33,662 nucleotides of DNA from Bdellovibrio sp. (GTDB lineage Bacteria > Myxococcota > SpSt-1050). The translations under genes and the position numbers were made by a program. The stretch lies in assembly GCA_020725805.1 (NCBI GenBank), contig DYEF01000012.1, forward strand, positions 1 through 33,662, read 5' to 3'. Below are positions 13,436 to 25,116 of the stretch, piece after piece (position 1 is the stretch's first letter; each line of letters starts with the position of its first letter). The notes below the pieces were generated by a model. The model saw only the letters and a list, made by a program, of their open reading frames with translations, was not told the origin of the DNA and did not search any database.

Positions 13436-14017
13436 TCATTGACAGTATCCGTTGACACACTTCTGATTTGTGGTCGTGCAGTCCGTGCACAATGTCCCTT
13501 TGTTGCCGCACGCTGAATCACTGAATCCCGAGTGGCATTTCTGGTCTGTACCGCAGCAGCCTGTGCAGTTCGTCATAGAGCATATCTCTGTCTTATCTGT
13601 GCAGTAACCATCAGAACAGATCTTGTTTGAGGCAGTACAATCAGTACAGGGAGAACTATTCTTCCCGCAGGCAGTATCTAGATTCCCGGGTTCAATACAG
13701 TAACCTGATGAATTGCAACACCCTTTGCAGGTATAATCCTTGCAGTTACCCGGAGTGTTGCCTCCGGTATCTTGCGTTCCGGAATCCGGTGTATTGTTCC
13801 CTCCGGAGAAAGAGCCTCCCCACGTACCGCTGCTGTCGGTTACAATCCTGCAGAAACCTTTTATGCACTGAAGACCGTTGTTGCAGGTTCCGTCCTCTTT
13901 GCACTTCCCGTATAATTCACCTACATCATATAAAGCGGAGTTGTCCGACTCATCGTCCTGCGTGCAGTAAGAGAGAGATATTGCAGCAACGGACAAAAGA
14001 ATTATTACTATTTTCAT
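13436..14017 (-). CDS. Cys-rich exported protein with two tandem Cys repeats
   Basis: The ATG at 14017 is chosen over a longer frame because AAGGAG lies seven bases upstream and a signal peptide starts there (KIVIILLSVAAISLSYC). Cys18 may be lipidated, although Tyr at -1 is not a standard lipobox. The mature part has a short module (CKEDGTCNNGLQCIKGFC), a Gly/Thr/Asn-rich linker, and two repeats of about 45 residues. The repeats share the pattern CxGCC, then C, ACG, CTDCT and CxxGYC. Similar Cys patterns occur in secreted proteins of myxobacteria. It lies 61 bases after the radical SAM gene and has its own promoter-like hexamers. Disulfide-rich surface protein is the safest description. Confidence 0.75.
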   Translation of the reverse strand: MKIVIILLSVAAISLSYCTQDDESDNSALYDVGELYGKCKEDGTCNNGLQCIKGFCRIVTDSSGTWGGSFSGGNNTPDSGTQDTGGNTPGNCKDYTCKGCCNSSGYCIEPGNLDTACGKNSSPCTDCTASNKICSDGYCTDKTEICSMTNCTGCCGTDQKCHSGFSDSACGNKGTLCTDCTTTNQKCVNGYCQ

Positions 14018-14042
14018 AATATTCTCCTTTACTGAGGCCTGT

Positions 14043-14071
14043 ATTTTAGCATAGCAGAATGCAGAAGTAAA
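14043..14071 (-). promoter_or_regulatory. Possible promoter for the Cys-repeat protein gene
   Basis: On the minus strand TTTACT (14066-14071) and TAAAAT (14043-14048) are 17 bases apart, in the gap between the radical SAM gene and the Cys-repeat gene. If real, the last gene of the cassette can also be expressed on its own. Confidence 0.4.
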
Positions 14072-14078
14072 ATAATCG

Positions 14079-15140
14079 TTATTTATACGAACGATATGTA
14101 ATGTACCTGTTGAGTTCCTCATCCGACCTGAATGATTTCCCTAGTACGGAGTTGTTCAGAATGTCTGATTCCATGCAGAGGTATAATCTAATGTTGTTGC
14201 TGTAATACGATCTAAAGATATCTGATATCGTTTTATAGATGTTATGTCTTAATTTTAGGGGATACCTCATCTTCTTCTCGGCATCGGTTATATACTCACC
14301 GAACAGAATATCGGAACCGAATATGTCCAGCATAACAGGATTGAACCGGATGGTCCCGAGCGATATCCAGCTGATTGCATCTTCCGGAATGAGCAGGGAT
14401 AATTCTCTGATTATTTTCTCATAGTCAGATTCGTAGTCTGTATAATGTATTATGGGGTCGAAGTGAAATCCTACTCTGTATGAATGGTCGGTACATTTTT
14501 TCGCCGCGAGCATCCGTTCTTTGGGAGCTGGTGTGCCGTGTTCAAGTCTTTTATGAAGATAATCGGTAGTCATTGAGAAGGAGACGGTTGTCATCGGATG
14601 GTGAGGAATACCTAGTATTTCATCCACATTTGCGCTTTTTGTCTTGAATTCCAGAATTGTTTTGTCCCTGTTTTTCATTTCTTCGATTAGTATCGGGGCA
14701 AACGGGGCTATATGTTCGAGTGCAAGGGAATCACTCAGTTCGCCGGTACCTATTCTGATGATTAAATCCTTCTCTTTGAGGTGTTCGGTAAATTCTCTCA
14801 GTTCCAACAGCAGATTACCGGTATCGGCCTTGATTGATATCTTTGAGTTATCTATGAATCCTTTCAGTATGCAGTATTCGCAGTCATAAATACAGCCTTC
14901 TATTGTATCGATTGTGAAGTAATTGCAGCATCTGTATTTTCTCGAGCAGGGACAGGGTCTGATAAAACCCTTTTGTGAAGAGATGTATAATATCTTCGAG
15001 CCTTGCATATCTGACAAACCGGAAAGATTGTCGTATATTTCGATATCATTTCTCTTCGCCCTTCTTATGATTTCCTCTGTAAAGTCATTTTGGGGTGATT
15101 TGGCGTCTATGACTATTTTAAGATCGGGTTGTTTTTCCAT
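14079..15140 (-). CDS. SPL-family (spore photoproduct lyase-like) radical SAM protein
   Basis: The 353-residue protein has the radical SAM [4Fe-4S] motif CIYDCEYC (Cys83, Cys87, Cys90). Ahead of it is a Cys-rich segment CPCSRKYRCCNY (Cys63, 65, 71, 72), corresponding to the CPGT..Y.CC.Y segment typical of the SPL-like radical SAM family. The N-terminal part (about 1-60) fits the Rossmann-like start of that family. SPL repairs the spore photoproduct in DNA; whether this relative acts on DNA is unknown, and no sporulation genes are nearby. Its ATG lies inside the end of the ParB-like gene (28-base overlap), with AAAGGAAGA just upstream, so the two are very likely co-translated. Confidence 0.82.
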   Translation of the reverse strand: MEKQPDLKIVIDAKSPQNDFTEEIIRRAKRNDIEIYDNLSGLSDMQGSKILYISSQKGFIRPCPCSRKYRCCNYFTIDTIEGCIYDCEYCILKGFIDNSKISIKADTGNLLLELREFTEHLKEKDLIIRIGTGELSDSLALEHIAPFAPILIEEMKNRDKTILEFKTKSANVDEILGIPHHPMTTVSFSMTTDYLHKRLEHGTPAPKERMLAAKKCTDHSYRVGFHFDPIIHYTDYESDYEKIIRELSLLIPEDAISWISLGTIRFNPVMLDIFGSDILFGEYITDAEKKMRYPLKLRHNIYKTISDIFRSYYSNNIRLYLCMESDILNNSVLGKSFRSDEELNRYITYRSYK

Positions 15141-15979
15141 TCTTCCTTTAAATTTTTGATGTCATCTATTATTCTGTCCAAATCATTTTCTGATGCAAAT
15201 ATTGCGTTGATACTATATCTGTCTCCCTCGAAGTTTTGGGGAGGAGATAATGAGATGTTTTTGAACCGGCCTGAAAAATCTTTGATTGATTCTTCCATTT
15301 TTGTAAGAACAGGATTTGTGATTTTTCTGAGCTTCTGTCTGATATCTTCATATGTCTGTTCTGAGAGCCCTTTAATAATTTTCTGAATATCCTCTCCCCG
15401 CATTGCAAGAATATACAGGTCGGATATAATCTCCCGCGACTGCTGGTGGGTAAAATTTTTATCTCGAATGAGTTTTAATATAAGGTGTATGTCTGAAGAA
15501 GAGGAAATCTTAAATAATCTCTCAATTGATATAATACTGAATTGCTTGTCTATAATTAAATCTTTTTCTGCCTCATTGAGCCTTTCTACAAAATCGTAGA
15601 GGTTACTATTCAGATTTATATTTCCTATCTCTGATCTGGAGATAAGCTCTTTTTTGATTGATATTTTATTTGATTTGATAAATTTGCTTATTCTTATCTT
15701 CTCAATAATGTTAAATTTGCGATGAAAAGAGTTTATTTCAAGATATATATTTAGGGCATTATGAATGTCTGTCGGAGGGAGGGTAGAGGAGTTTATTTTA
15801 ATGTTATGCATTCTTAAAATATAATATCTTTTATATCCGTCAATGATACAATTGTTTGTATTAATTCTGGAAGTAATAATAGGACAAAGCTGGCCTGTAT
15901 TCAGAATTGAGTTTTCAAGTCCTCTGTCTAAGGGGGGATAGGAAAAGTCGATTAATGGTATTAAATCTCTTACTTGCAT
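15113..15979 (-). CDS. ParB/Srx-fold domain protein, partner of the SPL-like gene
   Basis: The 288-residue protein has an N-terminal ParB-like (sulfiredoxin-fold) signature. LENSILNTGQLCPIITSR corresponds to the ParB opening region, and CIIDGYKRYYILRMHNI matches the nucleotide-binding DGxxRxxA box (Asp47-Arg51). The rest is Ile/Lys-rich and helical, plausibly a DNA-binding or dimerisation part, without a motif I can name. There is no ParA next to it, so a chromosome-partition role is not supported. It overlaps the upstream lipoprotein gene by 10 bases and the downstream radical SAM gene by 28, which ties it to them functionally. Its composition is noticeably more AT-rich than its neighbours, hinting at a different history. 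Confidence 0.72.
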   Translation of the reverse strand: MQVRDLIPLIDFSYPPLDRGLENSILNTGQLCPIITSRINTNNCIIDGYKRYYILRMHNIKINSSTLPPTDIHNALNIYLEINSFHRKFNIIEKIRISKFIKSNKISIKKELISRSEIGNINLNSNLYDFVERLNEAEKDLIIDKQFSIISIERLFKISSSSDIHLILKLIRDKNFTHQQSREIISDLYILAMRGEDIQKIIKGLSEQTYEDIRQKLRKITNPVLTKMEESIKDFSGRFKNISLSPPQNFEGDRYSINAIFASENDLDRIIDDIKNLKEEWKNNPILK

Positions 15980-17679
15980 TCAGCATTTATGCAATGAGTA
16001 TCTGGAGGGCATTTATTGCTGCAGTTTTTGCAATTATTATCGTCGGTATTGACATTGACTTCACAACCAGTATCGTATTTGCCGTCGCAGTCTGCAAAAC
16101 CGAGATTGCAGGAAGAGATAGCACATTTTGAATTCTCGCATTTGGTAACTGCATTATCAGCTAGGCAGGGATCTGAACAATTACCGCAGTTGAGTATGTC
16201 ATTTGTGATATTAATTTCGCATCCGTTTTCGGGCTTTAGGTCGCAGTCTTTATAATTCGTTTTGCAGCTTTTAATAATACATTTACCGTCCACACATTGA
16301 GGGTCGGCATTGGGGAGAGTACAGACCTGTTTGCATACACCACAGTTGCTGAGGTCGGTTTTCAGGTTCTTTTCACAACCGTCATCGAAGTTTGTGTTAC
16401 AATCACCGTACCCATCATTGCATTCGCAGTTAAAATTCTGTGAGCAGTGCATATTGGCTTTGCAGTGTTTTGTCTCGAGGCAGCAGGTGGGTCCCGGTTT
16501 GCAGCAGCTGTAGTTTACACATATCTTGTCCGTGAGAGGACAGGCGTATGAACCGAGGTCAGGGTGACAGTCGCCTTTGATACATTTCTTGTTTTCACAG
16601 ATATAGCCGAGACCGCAGGCAAGGTCTTCTATCCCGTCTATGCATTGAGTACATTTTCCCTGCTTGCATATCAGTTCTGTTGGACAATCTTCCTTTTTGG
16701 TGCAGCAGTCGGCACAGCATTTGTTTGATACACATATACCCGATGAGCAGTCGGAATTCTGATGGCAGTCACCATCAATACAGGCGCCGTTTACACATAT
16801 CTTTCCGCTTCCGCAGAGACTGTCATCTGTAATATCCGTGCAGGATGTACATTTGGAGTTTTTACATATCTTGCCCGGGGGACATTCTTCGTTTTTGGTA
16901 CAGGATTTCTCTACACATTTGCCGCCGATACATACCTCAAATGTCTTACAGATATCTCCCTCGTCTATCTGCCCGTTACAGTTATTGTCCTTGCTGTCAC
17001 AGGATTCATTGCTTATAATGAATGAATCCGAGTATTTGTTTCCATCGCAGAAGAAGCATCTGTTTTCACACCTTACAACGTATCCTTGCCGGCTGGAGTT
17101 GCATCCGATTTCGGATTCTTTCTTCCAGCCGAATTCTCCGCCGTTGTCGGATACACATACATATTTCTCTCCGCCTACGATAAAGCAGGTATTGCACTTG
17201 GTGTTTTCATCGCATTGTTCCGTAATTGAGCCGGTCAGCGTGCAGCTGCCGCAGACGTAATCTTCATCCGTTCTTCCGTCACAGTTGTTGTCGATACCGT
17301 CGCAGATTTCAGTTCCGTTGTTCGTCGGTATGCACTGGATATCTTCTGCTATATCTGTTGTCTCAATGTCCGGCAGAGTGTGTGTGTCAACTGATATATC
17401 TTCTGCAATGCCCGAATCTTTAACCGTAAGTGAGCCTTCCTTTACACAGGTCATTGTACTCCGGTCACAGACATACCCTGCAAGGCATTTTCCCTCGTTG
17501 TCACACTGTCTGTTGCTCAGCAGAGAGAAATCAACAGAGCAGGAAATAATGAACAGGGGTACAACAAATAGGCATTTTTTTAAGGTAGTAAACATAGACC
17601 CAATAATATTACAAATTTTGCAACAAGTAAAATGGAAAATTACAAATAATCCCGCAAAATCCCGCCTGAATCTGTTCAT
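15970..17679 (-). CDS. Large Cys-rich lipoprotein with MopE-type motifs
   Basis: This is a 569-residue exported protein. Numbering uses the ATG at 17679, which has a strong AAGGAGGG ribosome-binding site; an internal ATG at 17595 would give a conventional signal peptide but lacks one. The lipobox is FIISC (Cys47). A module ending GYVCDRSTMTCVKEG matches the lipoprotein at 6482. An Asp-rich linker (about 88-114) leads to two MopE-like Cys/Asp motifs: CDGIDNNCDGRTDE (126-139) and CDSKDNNCNGQIDE (227-240). These are followed by many CxxGxC units. Residues 420-569 hold three repeats of about 50 residues with the pattern DC..GCE......NCGxC. MopE motifs are associated with copper binding in methanotroph MopE, but the function here is unknown. 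It heads the cassette with ParB-like and radical SAM genes. Confidence 0.82.
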   Translation of the reverse strand: MNRFRRDFAGLFVIFHFTCCKICNIIGSMFTTLKKCLFVVPLFIISCSVDFSLLSNRQCDNEGKCLAGYVCDRSTMTCVKEGSLTVKDSGIAEDISVDTHTLPDIETTDIAEDIQCIPTNNGTEICDGIDNNCDGRTDEDYVCGSCTLTGSITEQCDENTKCNTCFIVGGEKYVCVSDNGGEFGWKKESEIGCNSSRQGYVVRCENRCFFCDGNKYSDSFIISNESCDSKDNNCNGQIDEGDICKTFEVCIGGKCVEKSCTKNEECPPGKICKNSKCTSCTDITDDSLCGSGKICVNGACIDGDCHQNSDCSSGICVSNKCCADCCTKKEDCPTELICKQGKCTQCIDGIEDLACGLGYICENKKCIKGDCHPDLGSYACPLTDKICVNYSCCKPGPTCCLETKHCKANMHCSQNFNCECNDGYGDCNTNFDDGCEKNLKTDLSNCGVCKQVCTLPNADPQCVDGKCIIKSCKTNYKDCDLKPENGCEINITNDILNCGNCSDPCLADNAVTKCENSKCAISSCNLGFADCDGKYDTGCEVNVNTDDNNCKNCSNKCPPDTHCINAECK

Positions 17680-17766: not shown

Positions 17767-19236
17767 TTGCCGGATACTTATGTGACAAGAGTGATTTCAG
17801 TACTCTTTTTGTCTGCTCTTCTGATAGTTTCAGGTTGCTCTGATAATTATTACGCTACAGATGATATTTCGGGCAGATTGCCTTCATTTGATATATCGGT
17901 TAACTATACATATGATACCGAGGCTTTAGAGCAGGGAGATGTCGGGATTTTTTCGGATTCTCCCGGATCTGACAGTCTTTACTCCGATTCTGATATCGCT
18001 GATGATTTGAATCCGGATATTTCTGATTTTTCTGATTTATCCCCGGATGCGGGTTCAGATACAGATGAGCTGATATGTCCGTCTGATATCGTTGCATCTT
18101 CCAGATACCTCGGAGACCTGTATCCTGCGCTGACGGTCAGCTCATATCTTAAGGGAGATTGTGATTCTGTAAGATATTCGGTGATAATGTCGAAAGGGCA
18201 GGAGTTTTCTTTTTATGTAAAGGGGACATATCTCAAACCATCGGTTATTATCACAGGTCCGGGTCTTTTAAGGTCGGATGTGTCATTTGTCAACGATGTC
18301 CGCGGATTGCCCCTGATATTTTCATTTAAGGCAGCAAGAACAGGCGAGTATTCTTTTGTACTTTCACAGAGCGACCTTAAAAAGGGAAGTCCATATTCGG
18401 TTACCGTCTCCTGTACTGATAACTGTGAGAAGGTTGCAACGAGGTATCCTGTTGTAATGGTGCATGGATTCTCAGGTTTTAAGAATATCGGTCCAGTGGA
18501 ATATTTCTATAAAGTTCCGCCTACTCTTGAATCCCTTGGATATGATGTCCATATTGCAAAACTGGACCCGTATAATTCGACGGAGGTGCGTGCCCCTCAA
18601 CTCAGGGATTTTATTGAAAAGGTGCTCGCCGATACGAACGCAAAGAAGGTCAATATAATTGCTCACAGTCAGGGAGGACTCGATTCGAGGTATGTTATTT
18701 CGGGTCTGATGATGGCAGATAAGGTGGGGGCACTCATTACTGTGGCAACACCTCATTACGGTACACCGCTTGCAGACTTTATTCTCGCAGACCCTACAGG
18801 TGCCGGAAAGGCGGCACTGGATGCCGTTCTGCTGATTATGGGTGCTGCGCTCGATTCCCAGTCAAGGGCCAATGCTATGGCCTCCCTTTATTCACTTTCG
18901 GTAGAATATGTAACCGGTACTTTTAACAACAGATATCCCGATGACAGAAGGGTCAGTTATTACAGCTATGCCGGAAAGACCTGCCGTGCGTGGGAGGACT
19001 GCGGTGATACAGTTGATGTGGAGATTGCCCTGACATATGAATTACTGCGGTCCGAGGTCGGAGATAATGACGGAATCGTGCCGACCAATAGCGCAGTCTG
19101 GGGGAAATTTATGGGAGTTCTGAAGGCAGACCATTTTGACGAAGTTGGTCAGGTCGCGGGGGTTACGAATCCGAACTTTAATCATATAGAATTTTACAAG
19201 AGCCTTACAGATATGCTGAGAGCAGAAGGTTTTTGA
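17767..19236 (+). CDS. Lipoprotein alpha/beta-hydrolase, triacylglycerol lipase-like
   Basis: The TTG start is supported by GGGAGG five bases upstream and an immediate lipoprotein signal peptide (LLIVSGC). An Asp/Ser-rich linker (about 50-100) and a beta-rich domain (about 105-220) precede the lipase domain. That domain has the oxyanion-hole motif VHGFSG (His233), nucleophile Ser301 in AHSQGG, Asp435 in DNDGIVP and His456 in KADHFDEVG. Cys406 and Cys412 sit in the position of the structural disulfide of group I.2 lipases. This layout matches Burkholderia/Pseudomonas-type triacylglycerol lipases with the chain tethered to the membrane. No lipase chaperone gene is adjacent. The catalytic residues look complete, so an active esterase or lipase is expected. 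Confidence 0.88.
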   Translation: MPDTYVTRVISVLFLSALLIVSGCSDNYYATDDISGRLPSFDISVNYTYDTEALEQGDVGIFSDSPGSDSLYSDSDIADDLNPDISDFSDLSPDAGSDTDELICPSDIVASSRYLGDLYPALTVSSYLKGDCDSVRYSVIMSKGQEFSFYVKGTYLKPSVIITGPGLLRSDVSFVNDVRGLPLIFSFKAARTGEYSFVLSQSDLKKGSPYSVTVSCTDNCEKVATRYPVVMVHGFSGFKNIGPVEYFYKVPPTLESLGYDVHIAKLDPYNSTEVRAPQLRDFIEKVLADTNAKKVNIIAHSQGGLDSRYVISGLMMADKVGALITVATPHYGTPLADFILADPTGAGKAALDAVLLIMGAALDSQSRANAMASLYSLSVEYVTGTFNNRYPDDRRVSYYSYAGKTCRAWEDCGDTVDVEIALTYELLRSEVGDNDGIVPTNSAVWGKFMGVLKADHFDEVGQVAGVTNPNFNHIEFYKSLTDMLRAEGF

Positions 19237-19271
19237 TATTGACCGTATTATCTGTTTGGTGCATTTATCTC

Positions 19272-19300
19272 TTGTCTGGAATAAAAAGCTGATATATTAT
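19272..19300 (+). promoter_or_regulatory. Promoter abutting the ftsB-like start codon
   Basis: TTGTCT (19272-19277), a 17-base spacer and TATTAT (19295-19300) place the transcription start within a base or two of the ATG at 19308. No ribosome-binding site is seen, consistent with a leaderless transcript. Confidence 0.45.
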
Positions 19301-19307
19301 CCGTGCT

Positions 19308-19583
19308 ATGAGGTTATGGATTATTCTAATATGTTTATCTCTTATCGCAGGTGGTATCTTTTTGTATAATTCCCTTTATATGTCTGAAAACGGACTATAC
19401 CGTCTCAATCGTCTTCAGGCAGAATACGAGGCCCTGCTGACCGAAAACAAGAAGCTCAGAGAGGAAAATCAGCGGTTCAGACTCCAGATAGAACTACTGA
19501 CGAACGACGACAGATATATCGAAAAGATTGCAAGGGAAAGAAATATGATAAAGGAAGGGGATATAGTCTTTCAGGTCAAATAA
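19308..19583 (+). CDS. ftsB: FtsB/DivIC-family septum formation protein
   Basis: The 91-residue single-pass protein has a short cytoplasmic start, a membrane segment (about 3-24) and a heptad-rich coiled coil (about 35-66, LLTENKKLREENQRFRLQIE). The C-terminal IEKIARERNMIKEGDIVF is characteristic of the FtsB/DivIC family. FtsB forms the FtsQLB complex that activates septal peptidoglycan synthesis. It begins a tightly packed plus-strand run and is followed six bases later by a diguanylate cyclase gene. DivIC and FtsB cannot be separated by sequence at this level; the symbol reflects the Gram-negative setting. Confidence 0.85.
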   Translation: MRLWIILICLSLIAGGIFLYNSLYMSENGLYRLNRLQAEYEALLTENKKLREENQRFRLQIELLTNDDRYIEKIARERNMIKEGDIVFQVK

Positions 19584-19589
19584 CAAATT

Positions 19590-21737
19590 ATGCCTGGATT
19601 CGCAAAACTTTTCAGACTGATAAAAAAGATATTCCTGACGGTGTATATATTTGCCGCGTCTGCTGTATTCATTTTTCTGACCGCCACTGATTTTTTTGTT
19701 CGGCACAAGGGTGATGGTTATTTCGGTATAGCCCTCTTTTTTCTGATAGTCCTGTTTATAATTGTATTTTTCAGACGAATTATCCCTGTATTGTATCCTT
19801 CATTCAGTCCTCCGAGCTTAAAAAATGATTATGAGTTTATCCTCGTTCTCATAAATGTCCTCTATTTTGTAATTAATGTCACCGACCAGTCTGTGTTTAA
19901 TCTCGAACCTCTTCTGTATCTGTTCGTTACCTTTGCCCTCTTCTTTATGCCCTCCAGAACCGGTATATTTGCAGTTCTGGTAATATTTGTGCAGGAATTA
20001 CTCATTTGCTTTTTTTCGACGAGATATTCCCTCACGGTCTTTCTGGGGCATACCATCTTCATAGCGCTGTTCGGACTTCTGTACTATCTGCTCAGCTATT
20101 TCGAAAGGGTAAGAAACAGGGCAATTCTGAAGAGTCAGATTAACAGGGAGGTTTATGAATACAGGGAGAAGATCAAGGATTACAGACTTGTGACTTCACA
20201 GAATGCCGAAGAGATCGACAGGGATGCCTTCCTGCAGGCAACAGTTATGTCTATCGAGGAATCATTCAAACTCGAATTCAGTATTATTAAGAATCTTCTG
20301 GGCCTTAACACACTGGCACTCTTCCTCTATGATGAGTCCAAGAAGCGCCTGAAGCCCGTTTATCATCTTTCCGATTACAGCGAGAATTTAATTGATGAGA
20401 AGATAGACGCTGATTCAGGGCTTTTCTCCGCGGTGATTAACAGTAAGGAACCTATTGTGGTTAATTCGGAAGACAGGAGTATTCGCGGGCAGGTTTATTA
20501 TAAGAAAGCGATGAAGATCAAGTCTTTTATAGGGGCAAATGTCTGTGAAAGGATAAGGGATATTGTACTCTTGCGCGGAATAATTATTGCAGACAGGACC
20601 GAACAACCTTTTACAGACGAACACAGAAGAATCTTTTCGATGCTCTCGGATTTCATCGGCTCATATGTGCAGACTCAGAGGCTCCTGCATAATATTACGG
20701 TTGAAAGAGAGCAGAAGGCAAAATTCTTCGAGGCGAGCAGAAGATTCAATGACGCACTTACTCTCGAACAGGTGATGGAGGCCTCTGTTGAATCAGCAAA
20801 AGTGATTTCGGGAGCGATCAGCGATATTATCATTACATTGCCCGACGGGGAGAATTCACTCAGGCAGAAATTTGTATTTATTCATTCAGAAAACGAGAAC
20901 ATAAAAAAGTATGAGGGAAAAACCATAAAGGATAATTCACCTGTGATAAAGCTTGTTGCCGAGCACAGAATAAAATTTCCGACAAAGGATTTCAAGGGTG
21001 ATATTACATCTATATACGGAGAACAGTACAGGATTGAAGGGATATCGTCAATCAAGGTTTTACCTCTTATTACGAGAGGCGATGCACTTATAGGAACTTT
21101 TGCAGTATGTACGAGAAACGGCCTCTTCCTTAACGAAGAAGAGACATATATGCTCGAGACTATGTCGAATATACTTGCTATAAGTATTGAGAACGGCATC
21201 GTGGTAAAGAAGATTAATGACCTCGCGACTACAGACGGTCTTACCGGTCTTTTCAATCACAGGGTATTTCAGGAAAAAATGGATGAAGTAATAGCGCGTG
21301 CAAACAGAAGTCAGGGCCGTTTTTCACTTGCCCTTACCGATATTGATTTTTTCAAGAAGATTAACGACACCTACGGACATCCGGTCGGGGATAAGGTACT
21401 TAAGGGGCTTTCCGCCCTGTTGAAAAAGATGGCAAGGGAGACGGATATCGTTGCAAGATACGGCGGAGAGGAGTTTGCAATAATAATGGAAGGGACGGAT
21501 GAGCAGGGGGCCTATACTTTTGGCGAGAGGATAAGGAAAGAGGTTGAGAAACTCGTTTTTGATGGCGGCGAGAAGACATTCGGAATCACTATCTCAATGG
21601 GGATTGCCACATTCTTTCTGGATGCAAATCAGAAGAAGGAACTTATAGGCTGCGCCGACCAGGCACTCTATTATTCAAAGAAGAACGGCAGAAATCAGGT
21701 ATGGAATTATCACCGGATAAAAGAGAAAAGTACGTAA
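19590..21737 (+). CDS. Membrane diguanylate cyclase with GAF-like sensors
   Basis: The 715-residue protein has about six N-terminal membrane segments (residues 12-175). A helical linker, two GAF-like regions (about 225-375 and 385-545) and a C-terminal GGDEF domain follow. The active-site loop is GGEEF (625-629), with an inhibitory I-site RETD at 616-619 placed five residues before it, so synthesis of c-di-GMP under product feedback is expected. The opening LATTDGLTGLFNHRVF and DIDFFKKINDTYGHPVGD are standard GGDEF motifs. The start lies six bases after the ftsB-like stop with no good ribosome-binding site, so it may depend on translational coupling. Its 3' end overlaps the next gene by 37 bases. 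Confidence 0.93.
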   Translation: MPGFAKLFRLIKKIFLTVYIFAASAVFIFLTATDFFVRHKGDGYFGIALFFLIVLFIIVFFRRIIPVLYPSFSPPSLKNDYEFILVLINVLYFVINVTDQSVFNLEPLLYLFVTFALFFMPSRTGIFAVLVIFVQELLICFFSTRYSLTVFLGHTIFIALFGLLYYLLSYFERVRNRAILKSQINREVYEYREKIKDYRLVTSQNAEEIDRDAFLQATVMSIEESFKLEFSIIKNLLGLNTLALFLYDESKKRLKPVYHLSDYSENLIDEKIDADSGLFSAVINSKEPIVVNSEDRSIRGQVYYKKAMKIKSFIGANVCERIRDIVLLRGIIIADRTEQPFTDEHRRIFSMLSDFIGSYVQTQRLLHNITVEREQKAKFFEASRRFNDALTLEQVMEASVESAKVISGAISDIIITLPDGENSLRQKFVFIHSENENIKKYEGKTIKDNSPVIKLVAEHRIKFPTKDFKGDITSIYGEQYRIEGISSIKVLPLITRGDALIGTFAVCTRNGLFLNEEETYMLETMSNILAISIENGIVVKKINDLATTDGLTGLFNHRVFQEKMDEVIARANRSQGRFSLALTDIDFFKKINDTYGHPVGDKVLKGLSALLKKMARETDIVARYGGEEFAIIMEGTDEQGAYTFGERIRKEVEKLVFDGGEKTFGITISMGIATFFLDANQKKELIGCADQALYYSKKNGRNQVWNYHRIKEKST

Positions 21738-22681
21738 TACCCGTTCTTGAGGGTGTAAATATTGCAGTAGCACTGATTCTGCTCACTTTTTATCCGTTTA
21801 TTACCGGGAAAGCCTTATTGGTTTTGCTCTCTGTACTGCTGTTTGTAATAGTTCTTCCTCAAAGATTCAGGTTGAACAATTTTTTCAGGTCTATGGTAAA
21901 ATATGCCGGTATACTCGTCTTTTTCCTGCCTGCGGCCTTTTCGCTCAATCAGGGCAATTTGTTGTTCGGACACCTTGTTGTGTTGATTCTCCTTTTTTAC
22001 CCGCTTTTTCTCTCTCTCAGGTTTATGAGGGATAATCCTGTAATAAGCAGGGAAGATATCCTGTTTGCAATATTTGTTTTTGCATTCCTTGTGCTGATGA
22101 TTCTATTTGTATACTATTCACCGATAAGGGAGGAGTTCCGGATAAAGACAGAGACAAATACGGTTCTGTACAAATCTATGTATCTGCTGTTTTTCCTCTT
22201 TCTTCTGATTGCAGATTTCAGGGTTCTTGAGTCTGTAAGTCATTCATCGTTTTATGTTTTGAAGGGAACCGAGAGAATCATTTCGGTCTTTCTGATACTG
22301 ATGATTAGTCTTTCGCTGTATGATAACATTAAACTCAGAACAGTTGCCGCTGATTGTATGCAGAGAAGATATTCAGGGTGCAGAATGGAGACGGATATAA
22401 TTTCCGGTCTGATGTATATGAAGGGGTTTGACAGTCAGAATATTTCCTTTCTTCAGGAATATATTGATAACGGATTGGAGAATTCGGATGCCGGTATTAT
22501 GAGGGTAATCGAGTCGGCAGAGAGAATGTATCCGTATGAGTGCGGGTTTTACCGGTCGAGAATACTTTATTATTCAAGATTCGGAATGCAGGACAGACTG
22601 AAGGAGTTCCTCGAAAATCTGCCTGCCCCGGCAAAAAAGGTGTGCAGAAATCTTAAAGAGGTAAAATCCGGTGAGAGATGA
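21701..22681 (+). CDS. Polytopic membrane protein of unknown function
   Basis: The 326-residue protein has about seven hydrophobic segments in the first 215 residues. A soluble C-terminal region of about 110 residues contains Cys-bearing motifs (DCMQRRYSGCRMETD) and looks helical. No known family was recognised. The start is embedded in the diguanylate cyclase gene (37-base overlap) and the end overlaps tadA by 11 bases, so it belongs to the same transcript. The overlap with a GGDEF gene may mean a linked envelope or signalling role, but this is inference. Confidence 0.75.
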   Translation: MELSPDKREKYVIPVLEGVNIAVALILLTFYPFITGKALLVLLSVLLFVIVLPQRFRLNNFFRSMVKYAGILVFFLPAAFSLNQGNLLFGHLVVLILLFYPLFLSLRFMRDNPVISREDILFAIFVFAFLVLMILFVYYSPIREEFRIKTETNTVLYKSMYLLFFLFLLIADFRVLESVSHSSFYVLKGTERIISVFLILMISLSLYDNIKLRTVAADCMQRRYSGCRMETDIISGLMYMKGFDSQNISFLQEYIDNGLENSDAGIMRVIESAERMYPYECGFYRSRILYYSRFGMQDRLKEFLENLPAPAKKVCRNLKEVKSGER

Positions 22682-23135
22682 TCTCTTTTTTATGGGCGAG
22701 GCCCTCAATGAGGCACGAAAGGCTTTTGAGTCCGGAGAAATTCCCGTAGGTGCAGTAATAGTCAGTAATGAGGGCGAGATTCTGTCGAGGGGATTTAATC
22801 TCAAGGAGACAACGAAGATTCCTCTGATGCACGCCGAAATCGTTGCGATTCTTGATCTGCACAGGAACCATAATATGATGTATCTTTATGGTTGTACGCT
22901 TTATACGACTCTCGAACCCTGTCCTATGTGTGCCGGTGCCCTTGTCAATGAGAGAATATCGGAGATAGTCTTTGCAGCCGAGGATAAAAAATACGGTGCC
23001 TGCGGTTCGGTATTTAATCTGACATCAGACAGAAATCTCAATCACAGCATCAGGGTAAGAAGCGGAATACTCAGAGAGGATGCGATCTCGCTTATTGATA
23101 AATTCTTCAGCCATTTGCGGGAGAAAGATGCCTAA
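22671..23135 (+). CDS. tadA: tRNA-specific adenosine deaminase TadA
   Basis: TadA deaminates A34 to inosine in the wobble position of tRNA-Arg(ACG). The 154-residue protein has the zinc-deaminase signature HAE (His54, Glu56 as proton shuttle) and PCPMC (Cys84, Cys87). The family EIPVGAVIV and ACGSVFNL segments are also present. It starts at GTG, inside the last codons of the upstream membrane-protein gene, and its end overlaps the next gene by 8 bases. A free-base cytosine or guanine deaminase is less likely given the ACGS motif and length. Confidence 0.92.
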   Translation: MRDDLFFMGEALNEARKAFESGEIPVGAVIVSNEGEILSRGFNLKETTKIPLMHAEIVAILDLHRNHNMMYLYGCTLYTTLEPCPMCAGALVNERISEIVFAAEDKKYGACGSVFNLTSDRNLNHSIRVRSGILREDAISLIDKFFSHLREKDA

Positions 23136-25116
23136 GAAAATAATTCTTCTCATTTTGCTGATGCTCGTATCGTTTAATCTTTATGCAGAAAAGGTGATAC
23201 CTTACGGCAAGGAGAATTATTTTATCTCCCTGATAAAGCCGTACGACCAGAGTTTTAATAATTACGCTCTGAAAAATATCTACATAAGCCGCGATAACGT
23301 CAGATATGAATTCTGTAAAAAAGAGTGTTTTTATGTTGTATTAAAAAGCAGGGCAGATAGCGATAAACCCGCGGCAGTTTCAAAGAATTTTGTTCTCTAT
23401 GTCGACGGGGACGTTTTATCACTGGATCTGAAACCTCTGCTGGATGTAATCGTTCGGAATGACACAGGTAAGGTATATGAACTTGCCGACAATGTCAGGC
23501 CTGCAATGACTGAGCCGGATTATAATATAAGGACAATCTATTTTCTGATTATGGCTCTAATCCTGATTTTTATGCTGACTTTGTATAAGAGTACATCAGA
23601 TATAATTACGGCAGGTCTGGACAGGATTGAAAAATATGTTACCAGATTATATCCCGTCCTCTTTTTTCTGATTCTTCTGTTTGCGTCGTATATGAGATTC
23701 AGGAATATTTATCTTCCTCTTGTGGAGGGGGGAAGTGCCCTGAGACTTCTCTTTTCATATGACAGTATTCTTTATAATCTGTTTATTTCCAATGACCCAC
23801 GGCATCCCGGTCTTTACTTTGCCCTCCTGAAACCACTGATTCTCTTTTCTGATTCCCCCGAACATACAGCCAGAATACTGAGTGCTTCTCTATCCGTTCT
23901 GTCGGTGGCTGTTATAGGTTTAATTGTCAGGGATGCAGGTTCTGTAAATTCACTTTTTGCGATGCTTATTCTTTCTGTCCACCCCGAGTATATATATCGT
24001 TCCCGTGAGATAACCGATATAAGTCTCTTTGTCCTGACTTCCCTGATGGCAATAGGTTTTCTGATGAAGTCAGAGGTAACGGACAAGAGATTATATAAGA
24101 TACTGTTCGTGCTTTTTGTCGTTCTCTCCTGTCTCTCATCATATGCGGCGTATGTTAATTTGATGGCATTTCTGTTTTATCTCTTGCTTACCGGCAGAAT
24201 GAAGGTTTACTGGAAATACCTTTTAACAGGTCTTCTTTTTGTTCTGCCTTATGTTTTTAAGATATTGTTTTCCCTGAGAGAGGAATTTTCTACGAGAGCC
24301 GTGGCTGACAGATTTCCGCATATTGTGTGGGGGAGTAACTCACTTCTGGAATTTTCACAGAGGTCTCTTGCCCTTCTTTTTGCCGGAGAGCAGACCCAGA
24401 TTCTTCTCCTCTTGCTGGTTATCGGTCTCGTGTTGTGGTATAAAAATCCGGAATTTAATCTTTTGTTTCTCTCTCTCTTCCTGGCTAATCTGGGGTTTGT
24501 GCTCTTGTCGGTCTTCTTCAGAATGATGCCTTATTATTTCATCTTTCTGCCCGTATCATATATCCTTGTTGTCTCGTATCAGAAGGGGAGTAATCTTTCT
24601 TTGTTCGGCAGATTGTTTAGTTTGATTATGCTGATATTTGCATTTTTATCGTTCTATAACAATCTGAAGGAGAGATTCGAGACTACTTTTATTCAGGGTT
24701 ATCATCTCAGGACGAATCCGGCGCTTATTGTAAAGACAATAAAATCCCTTAATGTAAAAGATGTAGTAATAGATATAGAAAACAATAAGCATACTATAGG
24801 CTATTACTTCTTTGAAAATCCGTATGATGTCCTCATCAAAAGCGGCTGTGATTCGACCCCCGATGAAGTAATGATATGCAGGGAGGATAAGAGCGGCAGG
24901 AGCATAACGGCACTTACAAAGACTCTGAGTCTCTCAGAAGGATGGGAGAAGGAGTCTGTAAACAGATTCAGGCAGCTTCCCTATGAAGATTTCTGTTTTG
25001 TATATGATGTCAAATATCCGAATACAATACTGCTCGGTTACGTCAGCAACATCTGTACCCCTGTATCACTGGGAGAAAAATATCTTGTATACAGGTGCAG
25101 TTCTCAGGTCAGGTAA
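23128..25116 (+). CDS. GT-C-like membrane protein with N-terminal periplasmic domain
   Basis: The ATG at 23128 gives about 662 residues starting with a clean signal peptide (LLILLMLVSFNLYA). An extracytoplasmic domain of about 115 residues (about 20-135) follows. From about residue 137 there are around ten or eleven hydrophobic segments. DPRHPGLYF (Asp223-Phe231) resembles the H-P-P-L-Y motif of GT39/PMT-type mannosyltransferases, and SREITDISLF follows. A large C-terminal periplasmic domain completes the protein. A lipid-linked-sugar glycosyltransferase is the best guess; the N-terminal domain is not typical. Its start overlaps tadA by 8 bases (ATGCCTAA). It runs convergently into the HD-GYP-like gene with an 8-base overlap. 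Confidence 0.7.
   Translation: MPKKIILLILLMLVSFNLYAEKVIPYGKENYFISLIKPYDQSFNNYALKNIYISRDNVRYEFCKKECFYVVLKSRADSDKPAAVSKNFVLYVDGDVLSLDLKPLLDVIVRNDTGKVYELADNVRPAMTEPDYNIRTIYFLIMALILIFMLTLYKSTSDIITAGLDRIEKYVTRLYPVLFFLILLFASYMRFRNIYLPLVEGGSALRLLFSYDSILYNLFISNDPRHPGLYFALLKPLILFSDSPEHTARILSASLSVLSVAVIGLIVRDAGSVNSLFAMLILSVHPEYIYRSREITDISLFVLTSLMAIGFLMKSEVTDKRLYKILFVLFVVLSCLSSYAAYVNLMAFLFYLLLTGRMKVYWKYLLTGLLFVLPYVFKILFSLREEFSTRAVADRFPHIVWGSNSLLEFSQRSLALLFAGEQTQILLLLLVIGLVLWYKNPEFNLLFLSLFLANLGFVLLSVFFRMMPYYFIFLPVSYILVVSYQKGSNLSLFGRLFSLIMLIFAFLSFYNNLKERFETTFIQGYHLRTNPALIVKTIKSLNVKDVVIDIENNKHTIGYYFFENPYDVLIKSGCDSTPDEVMICREDKSGRSITALTKTLSLSEGWEKESVNRFRQLPYEDFCFVYDVKYPNTILLGYVSNICTPVSLGEKYLVYRCSSQVR

Follow-up and report, generated by a model that had tools for sequence, protein, structure and literature searches.

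A ParB-fold protein and a spore photoproduct lyase-like radical SAM enzyme encoded as a recurrent gene pair in Bdellovibrio sp. and other bacteria

ParB clamps are known for their role in chromosome segregation, and spore photoproduct lyase (SPL) is the best-known DNA-repairing radical SAM enzyme. Here we describe a locus in which relatives of both are encoded by overlapping genes. In SPL, residue C141 of the Bacillus subtilis enzyme (Bs) quenches the radical and Y99(Bs) acts as a relay, so that SAM is regenerated (PMC3742179). The SPL-like enzyme of this locus resembles the SPLs of Geobacillus thermodenitrificans (Gt; 4FHC) and B. subtilis (SplB) in its overall fold, which matches along the entire chain (TM 0.77-0.80), in its CxxxCxxC motif, in Tyr89, which is the equivalent of Y97(Bs), and in Lys168, whose counterpart in the alignment is the Lys of FVTK, a segment of SPL. 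It differs from them in having a Glu in place of the hydrogen-donor Cys, an Ile in place of Y99(Bs), three extra invariant Cys residues, an invariant H226 and D228, and a ParB-like partner.

That partner shares with the ParB/Spo0J/Noc/KorB CTPase clamps the ParB_N fold, the GxxR and N..R boxes and the helix-turn-helix (HTH) bundle, and its last ~40 residues, a C-terminal b-b-a end, weakly match the C-terminal dimerisation domain of canonical ParB clamps (hhalign E 5e-4, probability 32%). Unlike these clamps, it lacks a ParA and a conserved HTH recognition helix, carries an extra helical segment that is also found in SPL proteins, and has a near-obligate SPL partner. Reuse of the ParB fold outside segregation is known from DndB-like and other orphan ParB-fold proteins, several of which bind CTP, ATP or GTP, with sequence being no reliable predictor of which (PMC12704722); the main text of that survey never mentions a radical SAM enzyme or photoproduct lyase. 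The enzyme gives weak to moderate profile matches to the SPL-like radical SAM families TIGR04070, TIGR03886 and Rv2578c, all of them far below the equivalog cut-offs. In a search of the literature other than subscription papers and preprints, we found no description of a pair linking the ParB and SPL families, and one genome paper naming both "spore photoproduct lyase" and "ParB" is unrelated by its title and abstract. As far as we found in the literature searched, the ParB/SPL pair is previously undescribed and matches general family models only.

The locus and its genes

The window, the whole stretch of 33,662 nucleotides that we analysed, comprises bases 1-33662 of one contig of the 3.29 Mb source assembly. 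Four minus-strand genes (Table 1) are transcribed in the order MopE-like, ParB-like, SPL-like and Cys-rich. All four had been proposed in the first-pass annotation, and the overlaps that it gave (10 bases for MopE-like/ParB-like, 28 bases for ParB-like/SPL-like) and the 61-base gap between the SPL-like and Cys-rich genes are exact. It had also pointed to a DGxxRxxx nucleotide-binding box and a missing ParA partner; the former is the ParB GxxR box, DGYKRYYI, and a ParA-type Walker box, KGGx[GA]K[ST], is indeed absent from every frame of the window. Its view of the four genes as one cassette holds for the ParB-like/SPL-like pair, which is conserved, but not for the fourth gene, which lies outside any conserved unit.

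The MopE-like gene has a lipoprotein start with the lipobox IISC at 17595, and its product scores 30.2 bits against Pfam Cu-binding_MopE (cut-off 27). This gene is probably co-transcribed with the pair. The fourth gene has its own ribosome-binding site, AAGGAG. Divergent from the MopE-like gene, positions 17767-19236 (plus strand) encode a secreted lipase-like lipoprotein (Abhydrolase_1, Lipase_2); a lipase-like protein is also encoded near the far side of SPL in the genus-mate G167 (L248:1001-1807, minus strand).

Table 1. Coordinates of features in the window and in compared loci (L numbers).
Feature	Position	Strand	Basis
MopE-like Cys-rich lipoprotein gene	15970-17679	minus	Pfam MopE 5e-7
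ParB-like partner gene, 288 aa	15113-15979	minus	family profile vs PDB, AF2, Foldseek, conservation
SPL-like radical SAM gene, 353 aa	14079-15140	minus	Pfam SPL 6e-25, AF2, Foldseek, conservation
Cys-rich exported protein gene	13436-14017	minus	ATG at 14017, AAGGAG upstream
ParB-like/SPL-like reading-frame overlap, 28 bases	15113-15140	minus	ORF coordinates
Helical segment of ParB-like gene, approx. residues 165-230	15290-15487	minus	fused to SPL N-terminus elsewhere
purC-ParB-like regions	L210, L212-L214, L218-L220, L222, L235, L238, L239, L241, L244		
Nucleoside phosphorylase-superfamily genes	L042:9153-9740; L006:9021-9605; L021:8808-9527; L019:8206-8919 (minus)		

Distribution of the pair across genomes

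Comparative genomics showed that the two genes co-occur almost without exception, with the ParB-like gene usually directly upstream. In G167, the single genus-mate (a sister species) compared, the MopE-like, ParB-like and SPL-like genes follow one another in the same order and the last two again overlap by 28 bases. A second SPL fragment on contig C72 of G167 was discarded as the same gene repeated at the contig end. At the sensitivity of a single-sequence search, this ParB-like protein was found in 2 of the 195 genomes of the phylum, namely the source and G167. In Aminicenantes, Acidobacteriota and KSB1, SPL relatives that are more distant (about 33-37% identity) are immediately preceded by a ParB-like gene. 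We searched all proteins of the SPL loci with a partner profile seeded with four ParB-like proteins; iteration let the profile drift into SPL through fused proteins, and the SPL part was cut off for the search used. This yielded 33 matches, some from duplicate loci, all adjoining or fused with SPL and none elsewhere in these loci. Among 34 genomes of one Aminicenantes family, SPL and a high-scoring ParB-like protein occur in an identical set of 17, at adjacent coordinates unless a contig break splits a gene.

The largest sample comprised 297 genomes of Desulfobacterota (the Desulfurivibrio phylum), scored at E<=1e-25 for the ParB-like protein and E<=1e-20 for SPL. The ParB-like protein was present in 147 genomes, SPL in 175 and both in 144, leaving 3 ParB-only genomes, 31 SPL-only genomes and 119 with neither (odds ratio 184; Fisher p=6e-49, a value that ignores species relatedness). 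All three ParB-only genomes have the gene at a contig end, where the SPL gene would lie. Coordinates were available for 124 pairs; in 76 of these the genes are neighbours on one strand, ParB being the upstream one, and 48 are non-adjacent (11 on the same contig but apart, 37 on different contigs), and therefore the co-occurrence reflects more than linkage. Pairwise distances among the ParB-like and among the SPL-like proteins are correlated (r=0.79, 36 pairs, 0 of 2000 permutations, with the species tree not controlled). We rejected a mobile-element origin of the pair, as matches in mobile-element records are few (2 phage and 6 plasmid) and are remote SPL-family matches only.

The first-pass annotation had proposed adjacency of the two genes in other genomes as its test, and the adjacency found in Aminicenantes, KSB1, Acidobacteriota and Desulfobacterota settles this point decisively. 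At least seven bacterial groups contain the two-gene set, which is present in about half of the sampled Desulfobacterota, a phylum of sulfate reducers, and we conclude that it is almost certainly a genuine and widespread two-part system.

Features of the enzyme and its partner

The SPL-like enzyme matches the Pfam SPL model at 6e-25 and an NCBIfam model at 1e-25, the latter far under the equivalog cut-off (TIGR04070 spore photoproduct lyase equivalog: 90.5 bits vs a curated cut-off of 400). Its radical SAM CxxxCxxC motif, C83/C87/C90, is kept in 69 of 69 relatives, and Foldseek searches with its AF2 model (pLDDT 91.8) returned 4fhc, 4fhf and 4rh0 as the best structures. The position of the hydrogen-donor Cys (C141 Bs / C140 Gt) is occupied by E134, within IGTGELSD, and across the relatives by Glu in 67 and Gln in 2; that of Y99(Bs)/Y98(Gt) is I91, with Tyr in 5 of 69. 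The extra Cys residues C63, C72 and C322 (LCME) are invariant in 69 sequences, C322 being absent from one truncated sequence alone, and the trio is absent from the clostridial SPL-family group, a pattern that suggests an auxiliary metal cluster. These residues probably form a putative binding site for an auxiliary Fe-S cluster. The sites at which clostridial SPL-family proteins carry Cys (LCISYD, RLCFDP) correspond to Gly131 and His226, both invariant in the SPL-like family, and the new invariant charged residues E134, K166 and H226 align with pocket-region positions of SPL. In a quick tree, used solely for the split of Cys-trio sequences from clostridial SPLs, the trio sequences, including that of the window, are separated from the clostridial SPLs by a fully supported branch; a small number of sequences that lack the trio, most of them on long branches, are interspersed among the trio sequences. 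From the profile, model and conservation data, the enzyme combines an SPL fold and radical SAM motif with an active site rebuilt without the hydrogen-donor Cys. Separately, three alphaproteobacterial SPL-like proteins (L041, L042, L043) lack the Cys trio, have a motif of their own, FFSGYDCDS, and lie in a nucleosidase and GT2 neighbourhood; they are possibly another unstudied SPL subfamily.

The ParB-like protein consists of an NTP-binding domain (GxxR 48-51, N83, R87, E93), an HTH bundle, the helical SPL-associated segment (about residues 165-235) and the C-terminal b-b-a end. Pfam ParB_N matches the window protein alone weakly (E=0.07) and is matched by 10 of 13 family members (best 1.5e-8). 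The family profile matches PDB structures of M. xanthus ParB, Spo0J and Noc across the ParB_N and HTH regions (M. xanthus ParB up to 3e-20, 7o0n; 7bnk at 6e-20), and matched no solved PDB structure in the C-terminal third. The best Foldseek matches of the AF2 model (pLDDT 90.5) are to ParB with a bound CTP analogue or CDP (E 4e-6), at an overall TM that is low (0.25-0.46), and the domains may sit differently. Within the family, G48 and R51 of the GxxR box are kept in 69 and 68 of 69 members, and N83 and R87 of the N..R box in 56 and 59 of 69; the Glu of ENxxR is Ile in the window protein. The HTH recognition-helix region has no conserved polar residues among the 69 members, and binding to a parS-like site is therefore doubtful. 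Weak matches of the partner to Pfam Herpes_BLRF2 and DUF3821, one member each, were taken as chance. Profile, model and conservation together identify a ParB-fold protein that keeps its nucleotide-binding boxes and is predicted to bind nucleotide.

The segment that follows the HTH in the ParB-like protein also occurs on the enzyme itself, as it is matched by a segment fused to the SPL N-terminus in Omnitrophota and WOR-1. When the 31 SPL-only Desulfobacterota genomes were searched with a better profile, a partner was found in 22 (12 with the ParB-like N-terminal and C-terminal regions, and 10 C-terminal-only, each directly upstream of SPL); 9 had no partner by this profile, and at least 2 of their SPL genes lie at a contig end. 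Among 20 SPL-negative genomes, the same profile gave no match extending past the canonical ParB region. As the shared segment is kept both in the fusions and in the C-terminal-only partners, it is the best candidate for a docking site, and as some lineages keep the C-terminal part or the fused segment only, the ParB NTPase is not always needed.

Possible functions of the pair

We consider it likely that the ParB-like and SPL-like proteins form a direct physical complex. We tentatively propose, with less than even confidence, that an NTP-switched, ParB-derived adaptor would dock the radical SAM enzyme and aim it at nucleic acid. The helical segment of the partner would dock on the enzyme, and the ParB part, which descends from nucleotide-switched DNA clamps, would position or gate it. 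The enzyme would make a 5'-deoxyadenosyl radical and may repair or modify a nucleic-acid base other than spore photoproduct; SAM would be consumed rather than regenerated, since the enzyme lacks the Cys/Tyr relay found in SPL. We hold just as tentatively that the target is a nucleic acid and that the ParB part serves as a switch or aiming device. A more specific form is doubtful: a DNA clamp of the ParB type, switched by nucleotide, would place the radical SAM enzyme on DNA for the repair or writing of a base modification, in a system widespread among anaerobic bacteria. Action of the pair on DNA was the first of two readings in the first-pass annotation and is still the best one, although the enzyme is no canonical spore photoproduct lyase.

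The genes that recur beside the pair bear on a rather unlikely alternative, in which the pair acts on a free nucleotide, a nucleoside, another small molecule or tRNA and the ParB-like domain, instead of being a DNA clamp, senses NTP or delivers the substrate. Of 40 Desulfobacterota regions, 13 have purC as the gene immediately upstream of the ParB-like gene, including regions whose SPL is located elsewhere. Genes of the PNP_UDP_1 type adjoin SPL at 9 loci and a related SPL at a further 4, and GT2 glycosyltransferase genes recur at 18 loci, preceding SPL or ParB in many. These recurrent neighbours keep a nucleotide-chemistry reading alive, and the alignment of E134, K166 and H226 with the SPL pocket region is consistent with it. 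However, the neighbours vary by lineage, none of the three kinds lies near the pair in this window, and both the SPL fold and the ParB ancestry are tied to DNA. A nucleosidase neighbour could clear 5'-deoxyadenosine. Uncharacterised nucleoside phosphorylase-superfamily genes were observed beside SPL-like genes in several phyla, some overlapping or abutting SPL (Table 1), and in Omnitrophota the SPL gene, fused in most cases, is overlapped or directly adjoined by a GT2 gene (L018:8845-9681; similarly in L022-L025, L030, L032, L034-L036 and L038).

Upstream autoregulators are common, and the ParB-like protein might be a mere transcription regulator of the SPL-like gene, like KorB or DndB, and no physical partner. 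A DndB-like ParB-fold protein is described as a repressor in work cited in PMC12704722. A regulator of this kind is nevertheless improbable, given a helical segment that occurs as a fusion to the enzyme or persists in the absence of an HTH or NTP domain, and given the 48 of 124 placed pairs that are non-adjacent yet co-occur.

If the enzyme were a genuine lyase of spore photoproduct or thymine dimers, targeted by a ParB-type subunit, this would agree with SPL being the best structural match over the whole chain and with the alignment of Lys168 to the Lys of FVTK. This reading too we find unlikely, because 67 of 69 relatives have Glu in place of the hydrogen-donor Cys and the family has three additional invariant Cys; moreover, Ile replaces Y99(Bs), and neither site where clostridial SPL-family proteins carry a Cys has one here. 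The hosts of the pair are not known to form spores.

The second reading of the first-pass annotation, radical modification of Cys-rich exported proteins by the SPL-like enzyme, is very improbable. Both species of the genus have a MopE-like gene that overlaps the pair, but this gene order is shared with G167 only, and among ~70 SPL loci no Cys-rich exported neighbour of this kind was found outside the genus (judged by the starts of their sequences, the other matches look unrelated). MopE motifs have 65 matches in the source genome, and no counterpart of the fourth gene was found in G167, in which SPL is followed by an RdgB-like gene on the opposite strand. These observations leave the reading unsupported, and we rejected the Cys-rich proteins as system members outside the genus; by gene content, the Cys-rich genes appear to be no part of the ParB/SPL system, the fourth being absent even in G167. 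Elsewhere in the source genome, many MopE-type motif repeats occur in a 3715-codon open frame on contig C29 (around 19167-23987, minus strand) and in a very long open frame on contig C27 (around 19272-20195, plus strand).

That unrelated genes lie together by chance is likely for the fourth gene. For the pair this explanation has nothing in its favour; the co-occurrence (p=6e-49) and the fusions refute it and leave it a negligible probability.

A near-obligate pairing of a ParB-fold with an SPL-fold protein is thus present in about half of 297 Desulfobacterota and in several candidate phyla, and we found no described function for it. With Glu134, the Cys63/72/322 trio and the candidate helical docking segment named as key elements, the pair is an experimentally accessible starting point for finding a new radical reaction, with nucleic acid or nucleotides as its probable target, and a novel way of using the nucleotide switch of ParB.
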